Shown piece after piece: positions 3,020 to 38,703 of a stretch of 64,000 bases of DNA. Made by a program: the position numbers and the translations under genes. Source of the stretch: Halopseudomonas phragmitis (GTDB taxonomy: Bacteria > Pseudomonadota > Gammaproteobacteria > Pseudomonadales > Pseudomonadaceae); contig NZ_CP020100.1 in the NCBI RefSeq assembly GCF_002056295.1, positions 2,131,501 to 2,195,500 of the forward strand, read 5' to 3'. The notes below the pieces were generated by a model. It did not search any database. It worked only from the letters and a program-made list of their open reading frames with translations, and was not told the DNA's origin. Every line of letters starts with the position of its first letter. The first letter of the stretch is position 1.

Positions 3020-5404
3020 TCAAAAACGTTGCTGCCACTGCCCCATGACCACCTGCATGGGCGCTGCGTCAGCCTGATGGCCGGGTTGGTGGATGCCAAG
3101 CCAGGACAGTTTCAGGTCGCTGTTAGCCCACAGCGGGCGCTGCCAGGACAGTTCCAGATTGAGCTGGCGGCCGCTGGGCGCCAGATCCAGCTTGACCGGC
3201 TGCCAGGCGAACTGATTGCCACTGTAGCCGGTGGCTAGCCAGACCTGGGTATCGGCGCGCTCAACGCGCAGCGGTTGCTGCAAGGCCAGGCCCCAGCTGT
3301 TGAGCTGCTGCTGGTAGTGGCCGTTGAGCTGCCAACTGCTGGTGGTGACGCGGCCCAGATCGCGTAACAGCCCCTGGCCTGAGACCTGGCTGTGGCCAAT
3401 CCAGGCAGCGTGTCCCAGTAGCCAGGGGCCGTTCTGGTAGTGACCGTAGAGACCACTGAACCAGGTGTCGCTACGATCATCCAGGCCAAACAGGCCCAGT
3501 CCGCGACTGTTGAACAGGCCGTCACGGCTGCGCAGGTAACCCAGCTCCCAAGTAGTCTGATAGTTCTCGCCGATGTGGCGCTGGTAGCCCAGAGCGCCAC
3601 CCTGACGTATCGAGCTGGCGCTGCTGGTCAGCTCCAGGTGGCCGTTGCCCAACGGCAGGCGCTGGCGGAGCCCCAAACTGCTTTCACCTGGTTGCTGCAG
3701 CCAGAAAGGGGCGGCCAGGCTGATATTGAGCAGGCCTTGCCCATGGCTGACGGGATGAGGGCTTAGCAGTGCAAAGTCCTCGACCAGACCCAGATGCAGC
3801 GAGCGGCCCAGCTCTTGCTGAATGTGCAGTACCCGGCTGCCTGCGCCGTTAGGGCTGCTATGCCAGGTCAGCTGGTAGTCGCCTTGCTGTTCGGACTGCT
3901 GATGGCGGCCAAGCCGATTGAGCGCGTCGCTGGCCGCAAAGCGGTAAGCCTGGTGATGTACTGCACTGCCCAGATCAATGCTGAACCCAGCCCCGAGGCT
4001 GTCGGTCGCCATGGCCGATTGGCCAGCCAAAGGATTGATGTTGCCGAAGGGCGTGCCCAGGCTCAGAACGGCACTTTCCAGACTCAGATGCTGTCCGTCG
4101 CTAGCCAGCAGTTGCAGGCTGCCGACCGGCCGGGTAGCACGTTCCAGGTCTAGTAGTCCCTGGCCGTACAAGGTCTGATTGGCGTAGTCGCCGGTTTTCT
4201 CGGCGGTACTGAGTAGGCGTTCGACCACCTGGGCCCCGCCCAAGGTCGGGAACGCCTCGCTGATTACGGCTAGTGCCCCGGTTACTGCCGGTGCGGACAC
4301 CGAGGTGCCGGTCGCGGTGGCATAGCCAGTGTCGCTGTTGTTGTAGCTGGAGTTGATATTGGTCCCGGGCGCCGCCAGGCACCAGGCTGCCGCGTTGCCG
4401 CAACGGCTGGAGCTGGCATGCAGTTGCCCGGTTTGCGGATCGACATTGACCACAGCCAACCAGTGACTTTGCAGCTCCGGATAGTGGATTGGCAGGGCGG
4501 CGAACAGTAGTGGTTGACCGCCATTGTTGTTACCGGCGGCCCAGACATACACATGCCCCTGACTGACACCGTGCTGCCACTCGGCTAGCAGTGTTGGGTA
4601 GCTGTTGGCCACCTGGGTGCGGCTGAACTGACTGGCGTCAACACTGATGCTCCAGCTGTTGTTGAACCAGCGGGCGCCTTGTTGCCGCGCCCAGGCGAAA
4701 CCATTGGCCAGTTGCTGCTCGGTGGCGGAAATCTGGTTGATATCATCGGTAAAGCGCACGTTGAGCAGTTGTGCGCCATGGGCATAGCCGACATTGCCGA
4801 ATCCGTCGAGCTTGGCGGCGATTACGCCGGCGACCAGGGTGCCATGACCGTCACTGTCCTGGGCATCGGCAGGGGCATTGCTGGCGCTGAATACGTTGTA
4901 GTGAGCGGCGATCTGTCCATCCAGCTCGGTGTGGCTGCTGCGTATGCCGCTGTCGATCAAGGCTATCCGCTGGCCTGCGCCGGTAAAGTCGCGATCATGG
5001 GCTACATGGCCATAGCTGATGTTGTAACCATTGGTGAACAGGTATTCGGCACCCAGAGGCAACAGCTTGGCGGAGTTGTCTTCCTCTGGCGGTGGTGCGC
5101 TTGGCGGGCTGCTGGTATTGCCGCCACCGCCGCCGCCGCCGCCACCGCCACCACCGCCAGCAGCTGCGGCCAGCCCCGCTACGGCAGCCCCGCCAGCGAT
5201 CCAGCCGAGATTGCCAGTTTTGCGTGCTGCTTGCGTAGATTGGGGCGCAGGAGCGCTCTGGGTGCCCGCTGCAGAATCCGCCTGGCTTTGGCTGAGTTGC
5301 TCTTCTTCTGCGGTTTCTGGTTGATCGGCGGTGCTCTGTGCCTGGGTGAGCGAGCTGCAAGCCAGCAGCGCCCCTAGACAGAGGTTGCGGTGAAAACTGC
5401 GCAT
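3020..5404 (-). CDS. Autotransporter serine protease (subtilisin family S8)
   Basis: A 794-residue secreted protease. Residues 1-22 look like a signal peptide ending TQAQ. They are followed by an acidic low-complexity segment, a hydrophobic Gly/Ala patch and a run of 13 glycines (83-95). The S8 domain spans roughly residues 120-420, with Asp151 in ALIDSG, His187 in DSDGHGT and Ser368 in ATGTSVSAP as the triad. The remainder is rich in aromatic and alternating residues and ends in Phe (QQRF), as expected of an autotransporter beta-barrel that inserts in the outer membrane via BAM. The poly-Gly segment after a hydrophobic patch resembles P. aeruginosa autotransporter proteases such as EprS (from memory). 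The gene ends 16 bases from the speA stop, convergent. Substrate unknown. Confidence 0.85.
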   Translation of the reverse strand: MRSFHRNLCLGALLACSSLTQAQSTADQPETAEEEQLSQSQADSAAGTQSAPAPQSTQAARKTGNLGWIAGGAAVAGLAAAAGGGGGGGGGGGGGNTSSPPSAPPPEEDNSAKLLPLGAEYLFTNGYNISYGHVAHDRDFTGAGQRIALIDSGIRSSHTELDGQIAAHYNVFSASNAPADAQDSDGHGTLVAGVIAAKLDGFGNVGYAHGAQLLNVRFTDDINQISATEQQLANGFAWARQQGARWFNNSWSISVDASQFSRTQVANSYPTLLAEWQHGVSQGHVYVWAAGNNNGGQPLLFAALPIHYPELQSHWLAVVNVDPQTGQLHASSSRCGNAAAWCLAAPGTNINSSYNNSDTGYATATGTSVSAPAVTGALAVISEAFPTLGGAQVVERLLSTAEKTGDYANQTLYGQGLLDLERATRPVGSLQLLASDGQHLSLESAVLSLGTPFGNINPLAGQSAMATDSLGAGFSIDLGSAVHHQAYRFAASDALNRLGRHQQSEQQGDYQLTWHSSPNGAGSRVLHIQQELGRSLHLGLVEDFALLSPHPVSHGQGLLNISLAAPFWLQQPGESSLGLRQRLPLGNGHLELTSSASSIRQGGALGYQRHIGENYQTTWELGYLRSRDGLFNSRGLGLFGLDDRSDTWFSGLYGHYQNGPWLLGHAAWIGHSQVSGQGLLRDLGRVTTSSWQLNGHYQQQLNSWGLALQQPLRVERADTQVWLATGYSGNQFAWQPVKLDLAPSGRQLNLELSWQRPLWANSDLKLSWLGIHQPGHQADAAPMQVVMGQWQQRF
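5121..5159. repeat. Trinucleotide repeat encoding 13 consecutive glycines
   Basis: Thirteen consecutive GGC/GGT codons (on the minus strand) lie between the signal-peptide region and the protease domain of the autotransporter. Nine of the thirteen are GGC (five in one run), so replication slippage in steps of three could vary the linker length without breaking the frame. Confidence 0.85.
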
Positions 5405-6529: not shown

Positions 6530-6694
6530 ATGGCAAGACTCCGCATGGATTGCTTCAGGCCTGCGGCCATTCGCAATGACGCTGGGGTGGATTTTGGGCA
6601 TCTGTTGTATATGCCTGGGCTGCGTATCTATCCGGGTCATTACGAGCGCGCTGCGCTGGAGTGCCTGCGAATCACCTCTCGTTCATGGCGCTGA
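6530..6694 (+). CDS. Candidate small ORF, 54 residues, unknown function
   Basis: ATG at 6530 is preceded by GGGGTGG with about 6 bases of spacing and opens a frame to TGA at 6692-6694. The middle of the frame (GHLLYMPGLRIYPGHYERAA) has codon choice like the neighbouring genes. The peptide is basic and has no signal sequence or clear membrane helix. It ends 8 bases from the convergent SDR gene. I recognise no family. It could be a small gene, the remnant of a larger one, or chance. Confidence 0.25.
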   Translation: MARLRMDCFRPAAIRNDAGVDFGHLLYMPGLRIYPGHYERAALECLRITSRSWR

Positions 6695-6702
6695 AAGTGG
6701 TA

Positions 6703-7386
6703 TCAACTTCCCACCCAGCCACCGCAAACAGGAAAAACCTGGCCTACAAAGCAGTTGGCGGCGTCGCTGCACAGGTAGGCGGCGAACAAGGCATCCTCTT
6801 CGGCAGTTACCAGTCGCCCCAGTGGTACTTCACGGTTCAGGCGTGCCTGGAATGCTGGGTTGGCCTGCACTTGCGCTGGGAAGTAGGTGGGGTTGTCGAC
6901 AAAGTTCTGGGCAATCGCATTGACCTGAATATTGTGTTGGGCCATTTCCGCACCCACTGCGCGAACCCAGGCCAGTTGGGCGCCGCGAGCGGCACTGTAG
7001 CTGGAGGCGCGCTTCATGCCGCGTAGCGCTGAGGCGCTTCCCATCAACAGAATTTTTCCCGCGCCGCGCTCAATCATGCGTGGCAGACAGTGGCGTGCCA
7101 GTCTTGGCAACGGCTCAACCAAATGCTTGAACAAGTGGCTCCACTCGGCGTCATCGACGTCAGTAGCTGCTGTACTGGGGGCGGGTACACCGAGATTGAG
7201 TAGTAGCACGTCGATGTCACCAGCCGCTGACAGCAGTTCTGTCACGGCTTTGGCAGTGTCGAGCGCCCGTGTGTCGGGGATGACAACGGCTCCACATTGG
7301 TCCAGGGTCTGGTGCAGGGCGGGGCCCATGAATGCGTCGGCCTGGGTCAAGAGAATACGTTTTCCGGAGAGATTGCACAGAGTCAT
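6703..7386 (-). CDS. Halohydrin dehalogenase-like SDR protein
   Basis: A 227-residue SDR-fold protein that lacks the classical TGxxxGxG NAD(P) site. In its place is T14-QADA-F19-x-G21, and the active-site residues are S117, Y130 and R134. These fit the two published hallmarks of halohydrin dehalogenases, T-x4-[FY]-x-G and S-x12-Y-x3-R, in which a halide/epoxide pocket replaces the dinucleotide and Arg replaces the SDR Lys. The stretch QNFVDNPTYFP (160-170) resembles the halide-binding loop of HheC. The predicted reaction is vicinal haloalcohol to epoxide plus halide, and the reverse ring opening with nucleophiles. The start at 7386 has GGGAG 5 bases upstream; the frame remains open further upstream without a ribosome site. 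It is divergent from a chemoreceptor gene, with an epoxide hydrolase gene 2.1 kb away. Confidence 0.72.
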   Translation of the reverse strand: MTLCNLSGKRILLTQADAFMGPALHQTLDQCGAVVIPDTRALDTAKAVTELLSAAGDIDVLLLNLGVPAPSTAATDVDDAEWSHLFKHLVEPLPRLARHCLPRMIERGAGKILLMGSASALRGMKRASSYSAARGAQLAWVRAVGAEMAQHNIQVNAIAQNFVDNPTYFPAQVQANPAFQARLNREVPLGRLVTAEEDALFAAYLCSDAANCFVGQVFPVCGGWVGS

Positions 7387-7428
7387 GATAGCTCCCGATG
7401 GGCAAATGTGTTTTTTTGTATGTGTTGC

Positions 7429-7456
7429 TAAAGTCGGAACGCTTTTGGGTCGATAA
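7429..7456 (+). promoter_or_regulatory. Candidate FliA (sigma-28) promoter of the chemoreceptor gene
   Basis: TAAAGTCG at 7429-7436 and GTCGATAA at 7449-7456 match the flagellar sigma consensus TAAAGTTT / GCCGATAA in 6 of 8 and 7 of 8 positions. The spacing of 12 is one more than the usual 11. Its position, 118 bases upstream of a chemoreceptor start, fits known FliA control of such genes. Confidence 0.45.
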
Positions 7457-7573
7457 CACAACTATGGAATAGATTCTATTGCCCGGAAGGTGTAGACGCT
7501 CGGTCATACCTGCGGCGGGTATTACGTTGACATAGTGAGTGGCGGCCTGCGTGGTACGTCAAGGAGTTTCTGG

Positions 7574-9502
7574 ATGGGTGGTGTGTTGCGGTCAATGGGG
7601 TTTGGCGCACGGCTGACGGTGATGATGGTTGGCCTGGTGTTGGCGGCGGTACTGGCGGTCAGCACCCTGGTGTTTGTGTCCTTCCGCGAATCCTTTACCC
7701 AGGCGACGCTCGATGAGCTGGAGGCGACTGGTCGGCTCAATGCCGAGTCGTTTGTCGACTGGGCGCTGGCCCGTCAGGATGAAATGCGTTACCTGGCCAG
7801 CCTGGATGCCGCTATCGGCATTGATGAGCTAGGACTTGAGCATTTGCTGGAGCGGATTGCCGCGGCGCAGGGGTTCTACGACACGATTTTCTTTGTCGCA
7901 CCCAATGGCCGTGGAGTGGTCGGGGTGGCCTACGATGGACGTGCACGGGTGCTGAGCCGTGATGAAGCGCAGGCCTTCGATGTGGCCGACCGGGACTGGT
8001 TCCGTCAGGCTATCAGCGGCCAGGACTCTTTCTCTCAGCCGGTACTGTCGCGGGCGACTGGTAATCGGGTCAGCACTGTGGCGATCCCGGTCCGGCGTGA
8101 TGGGCGGATAATCGGGGTGGTACGCGGTGCTGTACGAGTCGACACCATTCTGAAGCGGGTCAGTGAGCTGAACCGTGGTCCGGGTAGTGAGATTTTCCTG
8201 CTCGATAACCAGGGGACACCGGTTACTCCGGCCAATTCGTTACGCAACATGGACCAGCCGGTCAACAGCGAAGCCGGACGGGCGATGGCGGCTGGCCGCA
8301 GTGGCGTTGGGATTTACCCCAATGCCGCCGGGGTTCCGGTAGTGGGTAGCTATACTTTCATTCCGCTGCTGGGCTGGGGGCTGGTGCAGGAAACCGAACG
8401 TGCGGTGGCACTGGCCGAGGTCAACGCCGTGCTTTGGATACTGGTGCTGGTAACTGCCGGGATCCTGGTAGTGGCGGTACTGGCCTGTCTGTCGCTGGTG
8501 CGTTCGGTGGTCAAGACCTTGGGCGGTGACCCCGAGTATGCCGCGGCCATGGTGCATCAAGTATCCGAAGGAGACCTGACCGCGACCATCCAGCTCAAAT
8601 CCGGTGACAAGAACAGCCTGCTGGCGTCAATCCATACTATGCAGAACAGTCTGCGGACCATGCTTGGTGAAGTTAGTCAGTATTCTGAGCAGGTGGCTGC
8701 AGCGGCGACTGAGCTGACTCAGATCAACGAGGAAACCGAAGCCGGGATGCAGCAGCAGAACACCCAGATCAACAGCGCAGCGGCCGCCATGAATGAAATG
8801 ACCGCTACTGTTGAAGAGGTAGCGCGTAACACGCTCAATGCTGCCGATGGCGCCAAAAAGGCCAGCCAGGATGCCGGACAGGGTCGTCAGGTGGTGGCCA
8901 GCACTGTGCAGGCGATTGATCAACTGGCCCAGGAGATCAATAACGCGGCGACGGCTGTGAGCGACCTCAAGAGCGATAGCGACCGGATTGGCTCGGTATT
9001 GCAGGTGATCGAAACCATCGCCGAACAGACCAACTTGCTGGCGCTCAATGCGGCCATTGAAGCGGCGCGAGCCGGTGAGAGCGGGCGCGGTTTTGCGGTG
9101 GTGGCCGATGAGGTTCGCTCCCTGGCCAGCCGGACCAAGGATTCGACCACCGAAATTCAGGCGACCATCGAGAAACTCCAGAGTGGCGCCCTGAAAGCCG
9201 AGAACCAGATGCACAATAGCCGTGAAGGTATGCATAACGCGGTTGGCCGGATTGCCGAGACTGGAGAGTCGCTGGAGCGGATCGCCGAAGGGGTGCTGAT
9301 GATCGACGAGATGATGCAGCAAATCGCCAGTGCCGCCGAGGAACAGAGTGCTACGGCCCGGGAGATCAACCAGAATATCCACGGCATCAATGATGTGGCC
9401 GAACAGACCGGGCGTAGCGTTGAACAGTCGACCCAGGCCAGCGAATCGCTGGCCCGGTTGGCGGAGCAACTGCGTTCGCTGGTATCGCAGTTCAGGGTGT
9501 GA
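7574..9502 (+). CDS. Methyl-accepting chemotaxis protein with dCache sensor domain
   Basis: A 642-residue transmembrane chemoreceptor. TM1 is at about residues 10-33. The periplasmic dCache-type ligand domain (about 35-283) includes DRDWFRQA and repeated G-rich strands such as [12 protein letters not shown]2 lies at about 285-309 and is followed by HAMP and the long coiled cytoplasmic signalling domain. The conserved hairpin tip [19 protein letters not shown] lies near residue 485. There is no C-terminal CheR-tether pentapeptide. The start at 7574 has AAGGAG 7 bases upstream; an in-frame GTG at 7535 lacks a ribosome site. It is divergent from the halohydrin dehalogenase-like gene, and its last 11 bases overlap the convergent epoxide hydrolase gene. 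The ligand cannot be read from the sequence. Confidence 0.93.
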
Positions 9503-10454
9503 AGTGACGTTCGAGAAAGCTCAGCAGTAGCAGGTTGACGGTCTTGGGTTGTTCCGCCTGAATCCAGTGCCCGCAGTGGGGCAGAACATGCTGCTCCACT
9601 GCCGGTACCACGCTGGGCATTTTCTCGATGGTGTAGGCCTCAAGCTGGCCTACCGGGTCGCGATCACCGATCAGGAACAGGGCTGGCTGGTGGATCAGGT
9701 GGCCAGCCAGATCGGCGGTGCGTTCCCAGCTGCGCTCGAAGTTGCGATACCAGTTGAGCGGGCCACGAAAGCCGTTTTTGCTGAAGGTATCGACATAGAC
9801 CTGGAAGGCTTCATCGGGACACCAGGCTGGCGGTTTGCCTGGGTCTTCCAGGTCGTCGAGCCAGCGTCCGTCGGCGGGCTTGTCCTGGGCCAGATTGTTC
9901 TTGCCATTGGACAGGCCGTGCATCAGCAGGCGCAGGGTGCGCGGGACGTTTTCCTCCAGCTCGGCCTCGGCCAGACCGGGCGTCTGGAAGTACAGAATAT
10001 AGTGAAAGCGGTCCTGGTAGTGTTTGCGCATGGTGTCGATGGCCGGGCGCTTGGGGCGTCCACCAAAAGGTACCGACAGGCCGCCGACGACCTGGACTCG
10101 CTCGGGCTCGAGCAGAGCCAGGTGCCAGGCGACCGGAGCGCCCCAGTCGTGCCCGATCATGGCGACCCGGCGATGGCCGAGCAGGTCCATGGCCTGACGG
10201 ATGTCGTCGCACAGGGTGATCAGGTCGTAGGCGGCGGGGTCTTGTGGTGCGCTGCTCAGGCCATAGCCACGCATTTCCGGGGCGTGTACCCGGTAGCCGG
10301 CTTCGGCCAGGGCGTGGATCTGGTGACGCCAGGAGTACCAGCATTCGGGGAATCCGTGCAGCAGCCAGACCGGCTGGCCGTCGACCGGGCCGCTGATGTG
10401 CAGGCTGAGCTGGATGCCGTTGACGTCCAGCAGATGCGGTTCTATGGCGTTCAT
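9492..10454 (-). CDS. Alpha/beta-hydrolase, soluble epoxide hydrolase family
   Basis: A 320-residue hydrolase predicted to open epoxides to vicinal diols. It shows the oxyanion motif HGFPE (33-37), the nucleophile elbow GHDWG with Asp103 rather than Ser, the acid Asp266 in GDRDPV, and the base His296 in HCGHW. Candidate ring-polarising tyrosines of the cap domain are Tyr152 or Tyr155 and Tyr236 in NWYRN. An Asp nucleophile together with the paired tyrosines separates epoxide hydrolases from esterases and, with HDWG, from most other family members; haloalkane dehalogenases share the Asp but lack the tyrosines. The start at 10454 has GGAG 6 bases upstream. It overlaps the chemoreceptor 3' end tail-to-tail. 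The nearby halohydrin dehalogenase-like protein would make epoxides. Confidence 0.85.
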
Positions 10455-10651
10455 GATGCTCTCCATGGGCATTGAAAACACCCACTATGGCAAATCCGGC
10501 CGCTTTGCGCCGGGCTATTCAGCGGACGAAGCGACCATCATGCATTGATGCTATGGACACTCCGGATTTATCGCGGCCTGGGCGCATGCGAGGATTCGGG
10601 GCTTTACTGGGATGTGTGGCAATCATAACGAGTATAGCGAGGCACCTACTC

Positions 10652-12286
10652 ATGAGTTGGCTTAGATCCCTGAACATCAGCGCCCGTCTGTGGCTTATCC
10701 TTGGCGCATCCGTGCTCATGCTGTTCGCCCTGGGCAGCCTGATGCTGCAGCAGCTCAATAACCAGTTGTACGCCGGCAAGGCGGAAAAGACCCAGCATGT
10801 GGTTGAAAGTACGCTGGGGATTTTGCAGCACTTTCATCAGCGTCAGCAGAGTGGTGAGCTGGATCGTGAACAAGCCCAGCAACAGGCCATGGCGCTGATT
10901 CGCCAGCTCCGTTACGACGGCCAGGAATACTACTGGATCAACGACCTGCACCCGCGCATGGTCATGCACCCGACCAACCCAGCGTTGGAGGGCGAAGACC
11001 TGTCCGGCTACCGAGATCCGGATGGCAAGGCGCTGTTCAATGAGATGGTTGCAGTGGCTCGTGGCCCTGGTGCCGGTGTGGTCGACTACCGCTGGCCCAA
11101 GCCGGGTTCGGCCCAGCCGGTGGAAAAGGTCTCCTATGTGCAGTTGTTCGAGCCGTGGGGCTGGATTCTCGGCTCGGGAGTGTATATCGACGACATTCGG
11201 GCGCTGTTTTGGCAGCAGGTGCTGCGGGCGGCCTTGCTGGCGGGTGTGATTGCGCTGTTGCTGGGGCTGTTGATCATGTTCATCGCCCAGAGTATCAGCC
11301 GTCCGTTGCGGGCTTCGGTCGCGGCTATGGCCGATATAGCCACTGGCGAGGGCGATTTGACCCGGCGTCTGGATGAGCAGGGTGCTGACGAGCTGACGGC
11401 CCTGGCCCGGCATTTCAATGCCTTCACTGGCAAGCTTGCTGGAGTGGTGCGGCAACTGCTCAGTTCGGCTGGGGCGCTGGATCAGTCGGCACTGCGTCTG
11501 GGCGATGTGGCTGGCAGCACACAGGACAAGAGCGGCAAGCAGTCACAGCAGATGGAAATGATCGCCACAGCGGTCAACGAAGTCAGCTATGCGGTGCAGG
11601 ATGTGGCCAAGAATGCTGAGCATGCTGCAGCCGAGGTGCGTCAGGCTGACGATTATGCCCGTGCCGGGCAAGCCAGTATTGAACAGAGCCTGACCCAGGT
11701 GGACCAATTAGCTGTGACCATGAGCCGGGCGGTGGTAACCATGGAGTCTCTGGCCCAGGACTCGAACCAGATTGGTCGGGTGCTGGAGGTGATCGAGGCC
11801 ATTGCCGAGCAGACCAATTTGCTAGCGCTCAATGCTGCGATTGAGGCTGCGCGGGCTGGCGAGCAGGGCCGGGGTTTCGCTGTGGTGGCTGATGAAGTGC
11901 GGCTGCTGGCTCAGCGCACGCAAAAGTCCACGGCCGAGATTCAGCAAATGATCAGCACCCTGCAGAGCAATGCCCAGGCGGCGGTCAAGGTAATCCATGA
12001 TGGCAGTGAAGCTACTCAGGTAACGGTGCAGCGGACCACGGAGGCGGGTAGCCAACTGGCCCAGATTGTTACCGCCCTGCAGACCGTCAATGGCCTGAAC
12101 GAGTCGATTGCCAGTGCTACCTTGCAGCAGTCGCATGTGGTGGACGATATCAACCGCAATGTCACCGAAGTGGCCGGTTTGGCCCGCGACAATGCCGAGT
12201 CGGCGGACGAGTCAAGTCGTGCCAGCCAGCAGTTGACCGCGCTGGCGCGGGAGTTGAATCAGGTGTTGGGGCAGTTCCGGGTGTGA
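10652..12286 (+). CDS. Methyl-accepting chemotaxis protein with single-Cache (sCache) domain
   Basis: A 544-residue chemoreceptor. TM1 is at about residues 8-28. The periplasmic Cache_2-type domain (about 35-185) has the family-typical stretch [17 protein letters not shown] and [14 protein letters not shown]2 (188-212) is followed by HAMP with SISRPLRA, and the signalling domain carries the conserved tip [20 protein letters not shown] near residue 390. Such sCache receptors often bind small organic acids, but the ligand here is not predictable. I took the ATG at 10652 because the protein then begins directly before TM1; an upstream open frame back to 10472 adds a segment that does not look like protein. 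It is convergent with the TonB receptor gene and divergent from the epoxide hydrolase gene. Confidence 0.9.
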
Positions 12287-12331: not shown

Positions 12332-14524
12332 TCAGAAACTTACCGCATAACTCAGGCTCCAGGTTCGCCCTCGGCCGCGATAGTCAAAGGTTGAGGCTGG
12401 CGCATAGGCGCTGTAGAACAGAATCGCACGCTGCCCCCAGACGCTGGTGTAGTCCTTGTTCAGCAGGTTCTGAATGCCAAAGCCGAGCTGGCCTACCGGC
12501 AGTTGACGTTCGACCAGCAGATCCCAGGTGGTATAGCCGTCGATGCGATTACCATCGTCGTCTTTCAGATTGAGGCTGTGGATGCCCTGCAAGCGTACGT
12601 TGGTCAGGTCATCAGCCCAGCCGCCCCAGGCCGTGACCTTGGACGGACTGGCCTGGGTCACGTTCTGTTTTTTCCAGTCACCGTCGGCCCGCAGTTCCGC
12701 ACGCGTCAGGTGGGTGCTGGTGCCCAGTTGCCAGTGGGTGGTCGGCCGCCAGTTGAGCTGGGCTTCCAGCCCGTAGTTGCGTTTCTTCTCGTCGTTGACC
12801 TGGACTGCCAGGGTATTGCGGTCATAGCTCAGGCTTTCATCCGACCAGGCGTAATAGGCTGCCAGCTGGGCGTCCAGGTCGCCACGGTACAGACGCCAGC
12901 CCAGTTCGGCCTGATTGGTCTTGATCGCCTTGAGCGGCTGGTCGGCCACACTGACCCCGGCGATCAGCTCGCGGTGGCTGCCGTTGTAGGCATACTGCCC
13001 CTGACCGTAGTACTTGCCTGGGTCGGGGACTTCGTAACCTTGCGACAGGTTGCCCCAGAGCTGCTGGCCCTGATCGATGCTGAAAACCGCTCCAAGGTTG
13101 ACCAGGGTGGTGTTGTAGCGGTTCTTGCCTCCAGGTACCGGGTCGGCACCTGAAGCCAGGCCGAGTGCGACCCGGACCTGTTCTGCGGCGGCAATGAAGT
13201 CATCGACCTTGACCCGGTAGCGCTGCTGACGAATGCCTGCGGTGGCCAGCCAGCGCTGGCTGAGTTGCCATTCGGCCTGGGCGAAGGCGGCCAGACTGTC
13301 CACCTCATAGCCTGGATAGCGACCGACCTTGTCGAATTTGGCAAGGTCGAGACCGCCGCTGGCCTGTGCCCTGGAGAAGTCGAACAGGGTCTGGTCGGCT
13401 TCGAAACTTTCGTGCTCCAGATCCAGTCCGTAATTGAAGCGCCAGGCTCCCTGCTGACGGCTGAAGACCGCCTTGAGTCCGCTCAGCTCGGTATCCTGCT
13501 CGGAGGCGGCGAAATAACCGGAGGCTACGTAGGGAAAGGGGTGAAAGTTGAGCTTTTCCCGGCGATGGTAGGCCTGGAGGTTGACGTTGTGCCCCAGCAG
13601 TTCGCTGAGCCGGTAATCGGCGCTTAGTTGCAGGCGCTCGGTGCGCGGTTCCAGATCCGAGGACAGGCCGCTGCGAATCTCCACCTGTTCCGGGTAGGGT
13701 GGGTACAGCGCCGCCAGGTTGGGGCCGAAATACAAGCCCTTGTTGCCCTCATAACCGGAGTCGTAGACCTGGGCGTTCAGGCTCAGGCTCTGCCTGTCGG
13801 TCAGCGCCAGATCGAGGTTGCCCAGCAAGTCGATGCTGCGGTTGTACTGCATGTCGGTCTGGGCGATGTCAAAGATCACCTGATCGCCGTTGGCATCCCA
13901 GGCGCCGCCATTGTCCTGGCCGGCCAGTGCCAGGCGTCCGACCCAGTGCTGGTTGCCGCCGCTGATCGCGGCGCCGGCCCGCAGGTCACGGTCGTCGCTG
14001 GCTTCAAAGCCGCTGCGTACTCCGGCCTCAAGCTCATAGCGGGGACCGCCAATCTGACCACGCTTGGTGACGATGTTGATGACTCCGCCTGTAGCCCCGC
14101 CGCCGTAAACTGCACTGGCGCCGGACAGCACTTCAATGCGTTCTATGTTGAACGGGTCGATGCTGTCGAACTGACGGCTGACATTACGTGAGCTGTTCAG
14201 CGAGACTCCGTCGATCATCACCAGGACTCCGCGACCGCGCATGTTCTGACCGTAGTTAGTGCGTCCCTGGGAAGCAATGTCGAGGCTGGGGACCAGATGA
14301 GCGAGTGCCTCCTTGAGGGGTACGCCAGCACTGAACTGGGCCCTGAGCTGTTCGGCATCAATGATCCAGGCATTGCCGGGAATATCGCTGATGCGAGTGG
14401 CAACCCGTGAGCCGACCACGACTTCGCTATCCAGTCGGGTGCTGCTGGCGTGGGCGAAAGGCAGAGGCAAAAGGCTGGTGATGGTAGCGCCAAACAGAGT
14501 CCAGCGTAGGGCGGGGGACAACAT
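12332..14524 (-). CDS. iutA: TonB-dependent siderophore receptor, IutA (aerobactin receptor)-like
   Basis: A 730-residue outer-membrane receptor for a ferric siderophore. It has a signal peptide to about residue 25, a short TonB-box region (EVVVGSR), and a plug domain with QGRTNYGQNMRGRG, LVMIDGVSLNSSRN and VYGGGATGGVINIVTKRG. The 22-strand barrel ends with the typical terminal Phe (SYAVSF). From memory, the order of motifs, including DPFNIERIEVLSGA and YEVPDPGKYYGQGQY, matches E. coli IutA strongly. No iucABCD synthesis genes are nearby, so it probably imports a siderophore made by others. The ATG at 14524 has GGAG 11 bases upstream; a TTG at 14533 is the alternative. A Fur site covers its promoter. 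Confidence 0.85.
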   Translation of the reverse strand: MLSPALRWTLFGATITSLLPLPFAHASSTRLDSEVVVGSRVATRISDIPGNAWIIDAEQLRAQFSAGVPLKEALAHLVPSLDIASQGRTNYGQNMRGRGVLVMIDGVSLNSSRNVSRQFDSIDPFNIERIEVLSGASAVYGGGATGGVINIVTKRGQIGGPRYELEAGVRSGFEASDDRDLRAGAAISGGNQHWVGRLALAGQDNGGAWDANGDQVIFDIAQTDMQYNRSIDLLGNLDLALTDRQSLSLNAQVYDSGYEGNKGLYFGPNLAALYPPYPEQVEIRSGLSSDLEPRTERLQLSADYRLSELLGHNVNLQAYHRREKLNFHPFPYVASGYFAASEQDTELSGLKAVFSRQQGAWRFNYGLDLEHESFEADQTLFDFSRAQASGGLDLAKFDKVGRYPGYEVDSLAAFAQAEWQLSQRWLATAGIRQQRYRVKVDDFIAAAEQVRVALGLASGADPVPGGKNRYNTTLVNLGAVFSIDQGQQLWGNLSQGYEVPDPGKYYGQGQYAYNGSHRELIAGVSVADQPLKAIKTNQAELGWRLYRGDLDAQLAAYYAWSDESLSYDRNTLAVQVNDEKKRNYGLEAQLNWRPTTHWQLGTSTHLTRAELRADGDWKKQNVTQASPSKVTAWGGWADDLTNVRLQGIHSLNLKDDDGNRIDGYTTWDLLVERQLPVGQLGFGIQNLLNKDYTSVWGQRAILFYSAYAPASTFDYRGRGRTWSLSYAVSF

Positions 14525-14562
14525 CTCGGGCAAGGCTCCATGTGCATGAATTGAGGGTGTTA

Positions 14563-38660: not shown

Positions 38661-38703
38661 CTGTCATTGTAAAGGCCGCAGGCCTGAGGCAATCCAGACG
38701 GGC
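38661..38703. repeat. Second, degenerate palindromic repeat copy
   Basis: CTGTCATTGT (38661-38670) is followed by AGGCC-GCA-GGCCT (38673-38685) and GAGGCAATCCAGACGGG (38686-38702). The outer parts, GTCATTG and GGCAATC, match the two ends of GTCATTGCGAG...GCAATC-type dispersed repeats. It lies 58 bases after the perfect inverted repeat. Confidence 0.4.

Follow-up and report, generated by a model that had tools for sequence, protein, structure and literature searches.

Does a protein with the SDR fold, encoded on a 64,000-nucleotide stretch of Halopseudomonas phragmitis DNA (the window), belong to the halohydrin dehalogenases (HHDHs), and what would such an enzyme do in this bacterium? HHDHs are biocatalysts whose natural role is unsettled. 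The motif definitions by which they are recognized reportedly go back to a 2014 paper by Schallmey et al. The gene runs on the minus strand in a frame open from ATG to TGA. The longer version starting from a TTG at 7461 is a mechanical ORF call, and the ATG at 7386 was used. The gene and its main elements are as follows.

6703 to 7386, minus strand: D-type HHDH gene, 227 amino acids, ATG at 7386 (assigned by PDB matches, motifs, tree and fold)
7324 to 7347, minus strand: motif 1, T14-x4-F19-x-G21, nucleophile/halide pocket (by alignment; meaning from the accessible text of PMC11976700)
6985 to 7038, minus strand: motif 2, catalytic S117, Y130 and R134 (by alignment; meaning from the accessible text of PMC4989007)
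6877 to 6909, minus strand: loop Q160-P170, QNFVDNPTYFP, same as in HheD2

HHDHs are defined by an N-terminal T-X4-F/Y-X-G motif, which replaces the glycine-rich motif of SDRs (accessible parts of PMC4989007 and PMC11976700), and by an S-X12-Y-X3-R triad replacing S-Y-K. Both are present in the window protein. The original prediction had placed them at T14-x4-F19-x-G21 and S117-x12-Y130-x3-R134, and they are found at these very residues, as T14QADAFMG21 and S117ASALRGMKRASSYSAAR134; the accessible text of the same two papers gives exactly these motifs as what sets HHDHs apart from SDRs, as had been claimed. The loop QNFVDNPTYFP had been likened to that of HheC. It is indeed there, but the resemblance to HheC is loose (PNYLHSEDSPYFYP in 1pwx), the identical loop being that of HheD2. 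Motif 2 occurs in all 93 D-type rows and motif 1 in 91 of them, all but L045 and L072 (the window protein counted in both cases), and neither was seen in the seven SDRs tested from the same genome, out of 28 other matches there. Alignment of 44 sequences showed G21, S117, Y130 and R134 to be invariant, with T14 and F19 at a frequency of at least 90%. The presence of both motifs is not a matter of chance.

The nearest proteins of solved structure are HHDHs. When PDB chains were searched with phmmer, the first rank went to 7b73 (2.4e-91), identified as HheD2 in the accessible text of PMC9629495 and by its PDB title, and the second to 8xxb (2.4e-87), titled as a triple mutant of HheD8; HheB held ranks 3 and 4 (7.2e-50), 6a41 and other HHDHs followed, and the first FabG appeared only after these, at 1.5e-19. 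Subtype D is the nearest, with identities of 64.0% to HheD2 (142/222) and 63.5% to the HheD8 mutant (141/222) versus 43.4% to HheB (4zd6; 96/221) and 30.1% to HheC (65/216). HheD2 also has both motifs and is the top fold match; it differs at 36% of the aligned residues, and the function of the window protein is a predicted one. HheB, the nearest other type, has Tyr in motif 1 where the window protein has Phe. Since the identity to HheC is not above that of the best of seven own-genome SDRs (23.5-31.4%), it is the match to types D and B, together with the motifs and the tree, that carries the assignment.

The original prediction had proposed a tree with classical SDRs as a check. It comprised 54 rows: the 22 HHDHs of the genus, 20 of the 71 D-type rows from outside it, seven own-genome SDRs and five references (HheB, HheC, 6a41, HheD2 and the HheD8 mutant), rows of HheA, E, F and G being left out. 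All 47 HHDH rows, the window protein among them, were split from the seven SDRs at 100/98, with several branches very long, and the window protein joined eight other HHDHs of the genus at 98/94. HheB, itself on a long branch, was placed within the D rows, a D clade not being rejected (p-AU 0.544), and HheC sat on a very long branch. These comparisons support the classification of the window protein as a putative type D HHDH, apart from the host's NAD(P)-type SDRs that were tested.

The predicted membership in the HHDHs was supported by PDB matches, motifs and tree, but the protein is less novel than had been implied, HHDHs of this lineage being already described in the accessible text of PMC6922532. 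This 2018 paper reports HheD12 from P. pelagia CL-AP6, with homologues of 68-91% in the analysed marine species of the lineage except P. litoralis, and also in P. xinjiangensis. The window HHDH adds a new member to a known subtype that had already been published for this genus. Its best named relatives (among the best 80 of 299 kept from the collection scan) are from Halopseudomonas, at 74-77%. HHDH was found in 22 of the 37 genomes of the genus, window counted (E 1e-40), and a profile search covering 58 relatives retrieved it in 22, every one of them within the genus. At 1e-40, this is the only one of 19 genera (298 genomes) of the family with the enzyme.

The gene product very probably dechlorinates or debrominates halohydrins, turning small alcohols into epoxides. 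By analogy with solved HHDHs, Ser117 would hold the substrate hydroxyl while Tyr130, its pKa lowered by Arg134, would take the proton; the alkoxide would then displace the neighbouring halide to give the epoxide, and the halide would exit via the pocket lined by motif 1, the site of NAD(P) in other SDRs. The reverse reaction would open an epoxide with halide, azide, cyanide or nitrite. Such cofactor-free dehalogenation by Ser-Tyr-Arg is described for HheC in the accessible text of PMC4989007.

What the enzyme might be for is suggested by its surroundings. The same strand carries an epoxide hydrolase (EH) gene 2.1 kb upstream, the two genes being separated in the window by 2,105 bp that contain an inverted chemoreceptor gene.

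7387 to 7534, no strand: divergent intergenic region between the HHDH and chemoreceptor genes, kept in the sister genome G022 to window 7400, 13 bases before the HHDH start codon
7535 to 9502, plus strand: inverted chemoreceptor gene between the EH and HHDH genes, dCache_1 and MCPsignal by domain search
9492 to 10481, minus strand: EH gene of the EphA / soluble EH type (by PDB matches, catalytic residues and Pfam)

The EH probably starts slightly downstream of the GTG at 10481. Its best PDB match is EphA (5cw2, 2.6e-75), followed by human EPHX2 (2e-68), and haloalkane dehalogenases match more weakly; among NCBIfam models, each of the 20 matched was below cut-off. The catalytic set is present, with D112 as the Asp nucleophile, H305, D275 and the cap tyrosines Y161 and Y245, all five being kept in 35 of 35 aligned EH sequences of the genus (window counted). 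Mapped via the EPHX2 match, D112, Y161, Y245, D275 and H305 are equivalent to D335, Y383, Y466, D496 and H524 of sEH. The window EH is a predicted epoxide hydrolase of the alpha/beta fold, which would hydrolyse epoxides to diols. Elsewhere in the same genome (G000:C1:2914591-2915478), there is a second EH-like protein, 39% identical to it.

The arrangement found in the window is a variant of a linkage common in the genus. Besides the window's, 21 genomes of the genus carry HHDH, and in 17 of these the HHDH gene is immediately preceded by the EH gene on the same strand (gap -4 to +69 bp); the 43 loci with both genes count the window as well as multiple loci from a single genome. At L032, from H. 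pelagia CL-AP6, the gene is 76% identical to the window HHDH and is presumed to be HheD12 (WP_022962804.1); this strain belongs to the same genus as the window, and its EH gene runs 4 bp into the start of the HHDH, whereas the chemoreceptor gene intervenes in the window. Four of the 22 HHDH genomes are exceptions (G019, G026, G027 and G031), and in the trees the HHDHs of these four make up a D lineage of their own. The EH is elsewhere than at the HHDH in G019, G027 and G031, and was not found in G026 (81% complete); the contig ends about 857 bp upstream of the HHDH in G026 and about 362 bp in G027. EH is present in 36 of the 37 genomes, the match in G023 being partial (180 residues), versus 22 with HHDH, and the EH therefore has a job that does not involve HHDH. 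Both genes are under selective constraint: in five pairs of genus genomes other than the window's, dN/dS was 0.038-0.073 for HHDH and 0.032-0.087 for EH, dS exceeding 1 in two of the pairs. Pairwise HHDH and EH distances are correlated over 21 genomes (r = 0.84), as common descent alone would also produce.

We consider it probable that the protein is a cofactor-free D-type HHDH that most likely acts, in this genus, with the adjacent EH on the route from haloalcohol to epoxide to diol, for detoxification or salvage. The EH, encoded beside the HHDH in most HHDH-bearing genomes of the genus, would convert the reactive epoxide into the diol, and the HHDH would be the optional part of this two-step module. 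The data show family membership by sequence, the motifs, the linkage and the selective constraint; catalysis, substrate and joint pathway are inferred. A comparable case is HheC of Agrobacterium radiobacter, another subtype only 30% identical to the window HHDH, for which HHDH and EH genes are reported in one operon in the accessible text of PMC11976700. No report of the Halopseudomonas linkage was seen among the literature matches listed.

The protein could also be an HHDH by descent whose natural reaction is a different one of the same chemistry, for instance the opening of an endogenous epoxide by a small anion or the conversion of an unknown beta-substituted alcohol, with dehalogenation as a side activity. 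This possibility is a tentative one, which we rate as unlikely. The 2016 review, in its accessible text (PMC4989007), counts only two known HHDH genes in an operon with an EH and therefore does not exclude other physiological functions, and EH genes do occur without HHDH in genomes of the genus. The picture outside the genus points the same way: no EH relative was found near the D-type HHDH in any of 71 loci, for which at most 10 kb of flank per side was stored, many loci being short. Together with the four exceptions among the 22 genus genomes, this means that pairing with an EH does not hold for D-type enzymes in general. Gene neighbourhoods there were obtained by mechanical gene calls, which recovered the HHDH in 65 of 81 loci (window counted); 55 outside loci gave 60 adjacent genes on the same strand, 54 of them with at least 100 amino acids. 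Alignment and scanning covered 49 of the 54 and omitted five. The neighbours are varied, no Pfam family being found in more than three of these 49 (HMGL-like in three, DUF2288 in three). The loci with an HMGL-like neighbour include, by sequence reading, L104 (Dechloromonas sp.), L077 and L082, and the HHDH may lie there within a cluster for acyl-CoA or leucine breakdown. Against a different natural reaction stand the usual position of the HHDH directly after the EH in Halopseudomonas and the statement, in the accessible text of PMC11536340, that HHDHs presumably detoxify haloalcohols. The linkage supports haloalcohol detoxification in the genus, short of proof.

It is decidedly improbable that the HHDH gene is decaying or recently captured and without function in the window species, an idea to which the split locus gives some substance. 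The inverted chemoreceptor gene separates the HHDH from the EH that is usually its partner in an operon, and no other locus in the comparison combines chemoreceptor and HHDH at this site. A homologue of the chemoreceptor gene follows the EH in G022, G036, G019, G027 and G031. G022, the nearest relative among the genomes compared (EH 98%), has the locus without HHDH: its sequence is 95.6% identical to the window over 12.6 kb on one flank of the gene and 94.6% identical over 6.3 kb on the other, and window 7399-6330, comprising the HHDH with the 13 bases that precede it and the 373 that follow, is swapped for 153 unrelated bases. These had no match past the shared flank among the compared loci, and neither a search at E 1e-40 nor a profile search found an HHDH elsewhere in G022. 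Ten of 11 HHDH-less genomes inspected have the order EH, YhhQ-like, ligase-like and SpeA (names by sequence reading), and the eleventh, G036, has the chemoreceptor after the EH.

The history of the gene was followed in single-gene trees. The SpeA tree (30 rows) contains the window, G022, G036, G019 and G031 as one starred set (98), so that the EH-chemoreceptor order would be a shared trait; this set is absent from the EH tree (35 rows). HHDH presence requires at least four changes on the SpeA tree and three on the EH tree. The window HHDH and EH have different nearest relatives: the HHDH sits closest to that of G001-G018 (98/94), while the EH groups with genomes outside this group (84 SH-aLRT, not starred) and SpeA goes with G036, G019 and G031. 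This discordance would fit a gain by transfer within the genus, and the upstream stretch retained in G022 points to a loss there. Decay or capture is countered by the intact reading frame, by the retention of the family-conserved residues and by the grouping of the window HHDH, at 98/94, with operon-borne HHDHs of the genus. A mobile origin was considered and rejected on a search of viral contigs and plasmids; the viral contigs contained no relative, and the plasmids gave a single match (E 1e-30, 42.5% identical), from Novosphingobium and annotated as SDR family oxidoreductase.

Several other elements of the locus were recorded. A second chemoreceptor gene (10472-12286, plus strand; sCache_2/dCache_2, HAMP and MCPsignal) starts inside the 5' end of the opposite-strand EH gene, which is therefore flanked by two chemoreceptor genes. 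Next comes a TonB-dependent receptor gene (12332-14533, minus strand), found among the compared loci of the genus only here and in G022. Downstream of the HHDH, a scan for promoters and terminators gave one promoter-like site (6536-6508, minus strand; shuffle mean 1.7). The 35-bp sequence at 6546-6580, also downstream, recurs at window 38663-38696 (88.6%) and twice more elsewhere in the genome, in L007 and L152, with 85-86% identity; it is possibly a REP-like repeat. Further along, at 3020-5404 on the minus strand, there is a subtilase-family serine peptidase gene with a long glycine run, the C-terminal part of whose product appears autotransporter-like by sequence reading.

Domain and fold comparisons draw the boundary with other SDRs less sharply. 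Pfam assigns adh_short_C2 and adh_short to the window protein, and NCBIfam gave nothing above cut-off among the 25 of 187 matches listed; as these curated libraries yield no HHDH name, a plain SDR label is to be expected from automatic annotation, just as the original prediction had anticipated. The single-chain structure model, built from 44 sequences, has a mean pLDDT of 86.5, residues 223-227 being below 50. Of its top ten Foldseek matches in the PDB, nine are HHDH chains belonging to types D and B, and the other is 6a41, which bears the title 'Dehalogenation enzyme'; starting with rank 11, HheG and HheC are intermixed with NAD(P)-dependent SDRs. The modelled fold would accordingly speak for HHDH membership less sharply than sequence, motifs and tree. 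That the protein is a conventional NAD(P)-dependent SDR which matches the motifs by coincidence, as the general family labels and the common fold might suggest, is exceedingly improbable and, as far as sequence goes, refuted by the loss of the glycine-rich motif, the change of Lys to Arg in the triad, and the tree and identities that place it with HheD2 and HheD8.

Taken singly, the predicted D-type HHDH of the window is one more enzyme of its type, and it is the EH linkage across the genus that is worth following. The stronger proposal, a dedicated two-gene module for haloalcohol detoxification in which the EH is the near-fixed resident and the HHDH has been gained or lost several times beside it, is one on which we remain evenly divided. 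As for a feeding step, the models for haloalkane dehalogenase (NF002043) and 2-haloacid dehalogenase (TIGR01428) stayed below their cut-offs in the genome. With adjacent HHDH and EH genes in 17 genomes, other genomes that have EH alone, and two near-sisters of which only one has the HHDH, the genus offers a direct way to test the role of the enzyme. If true, the two-gene module would settle the natural role of D-type HHDHs for one lineage, its targets perhaps being halohydrins encountered in the sea or near algae.
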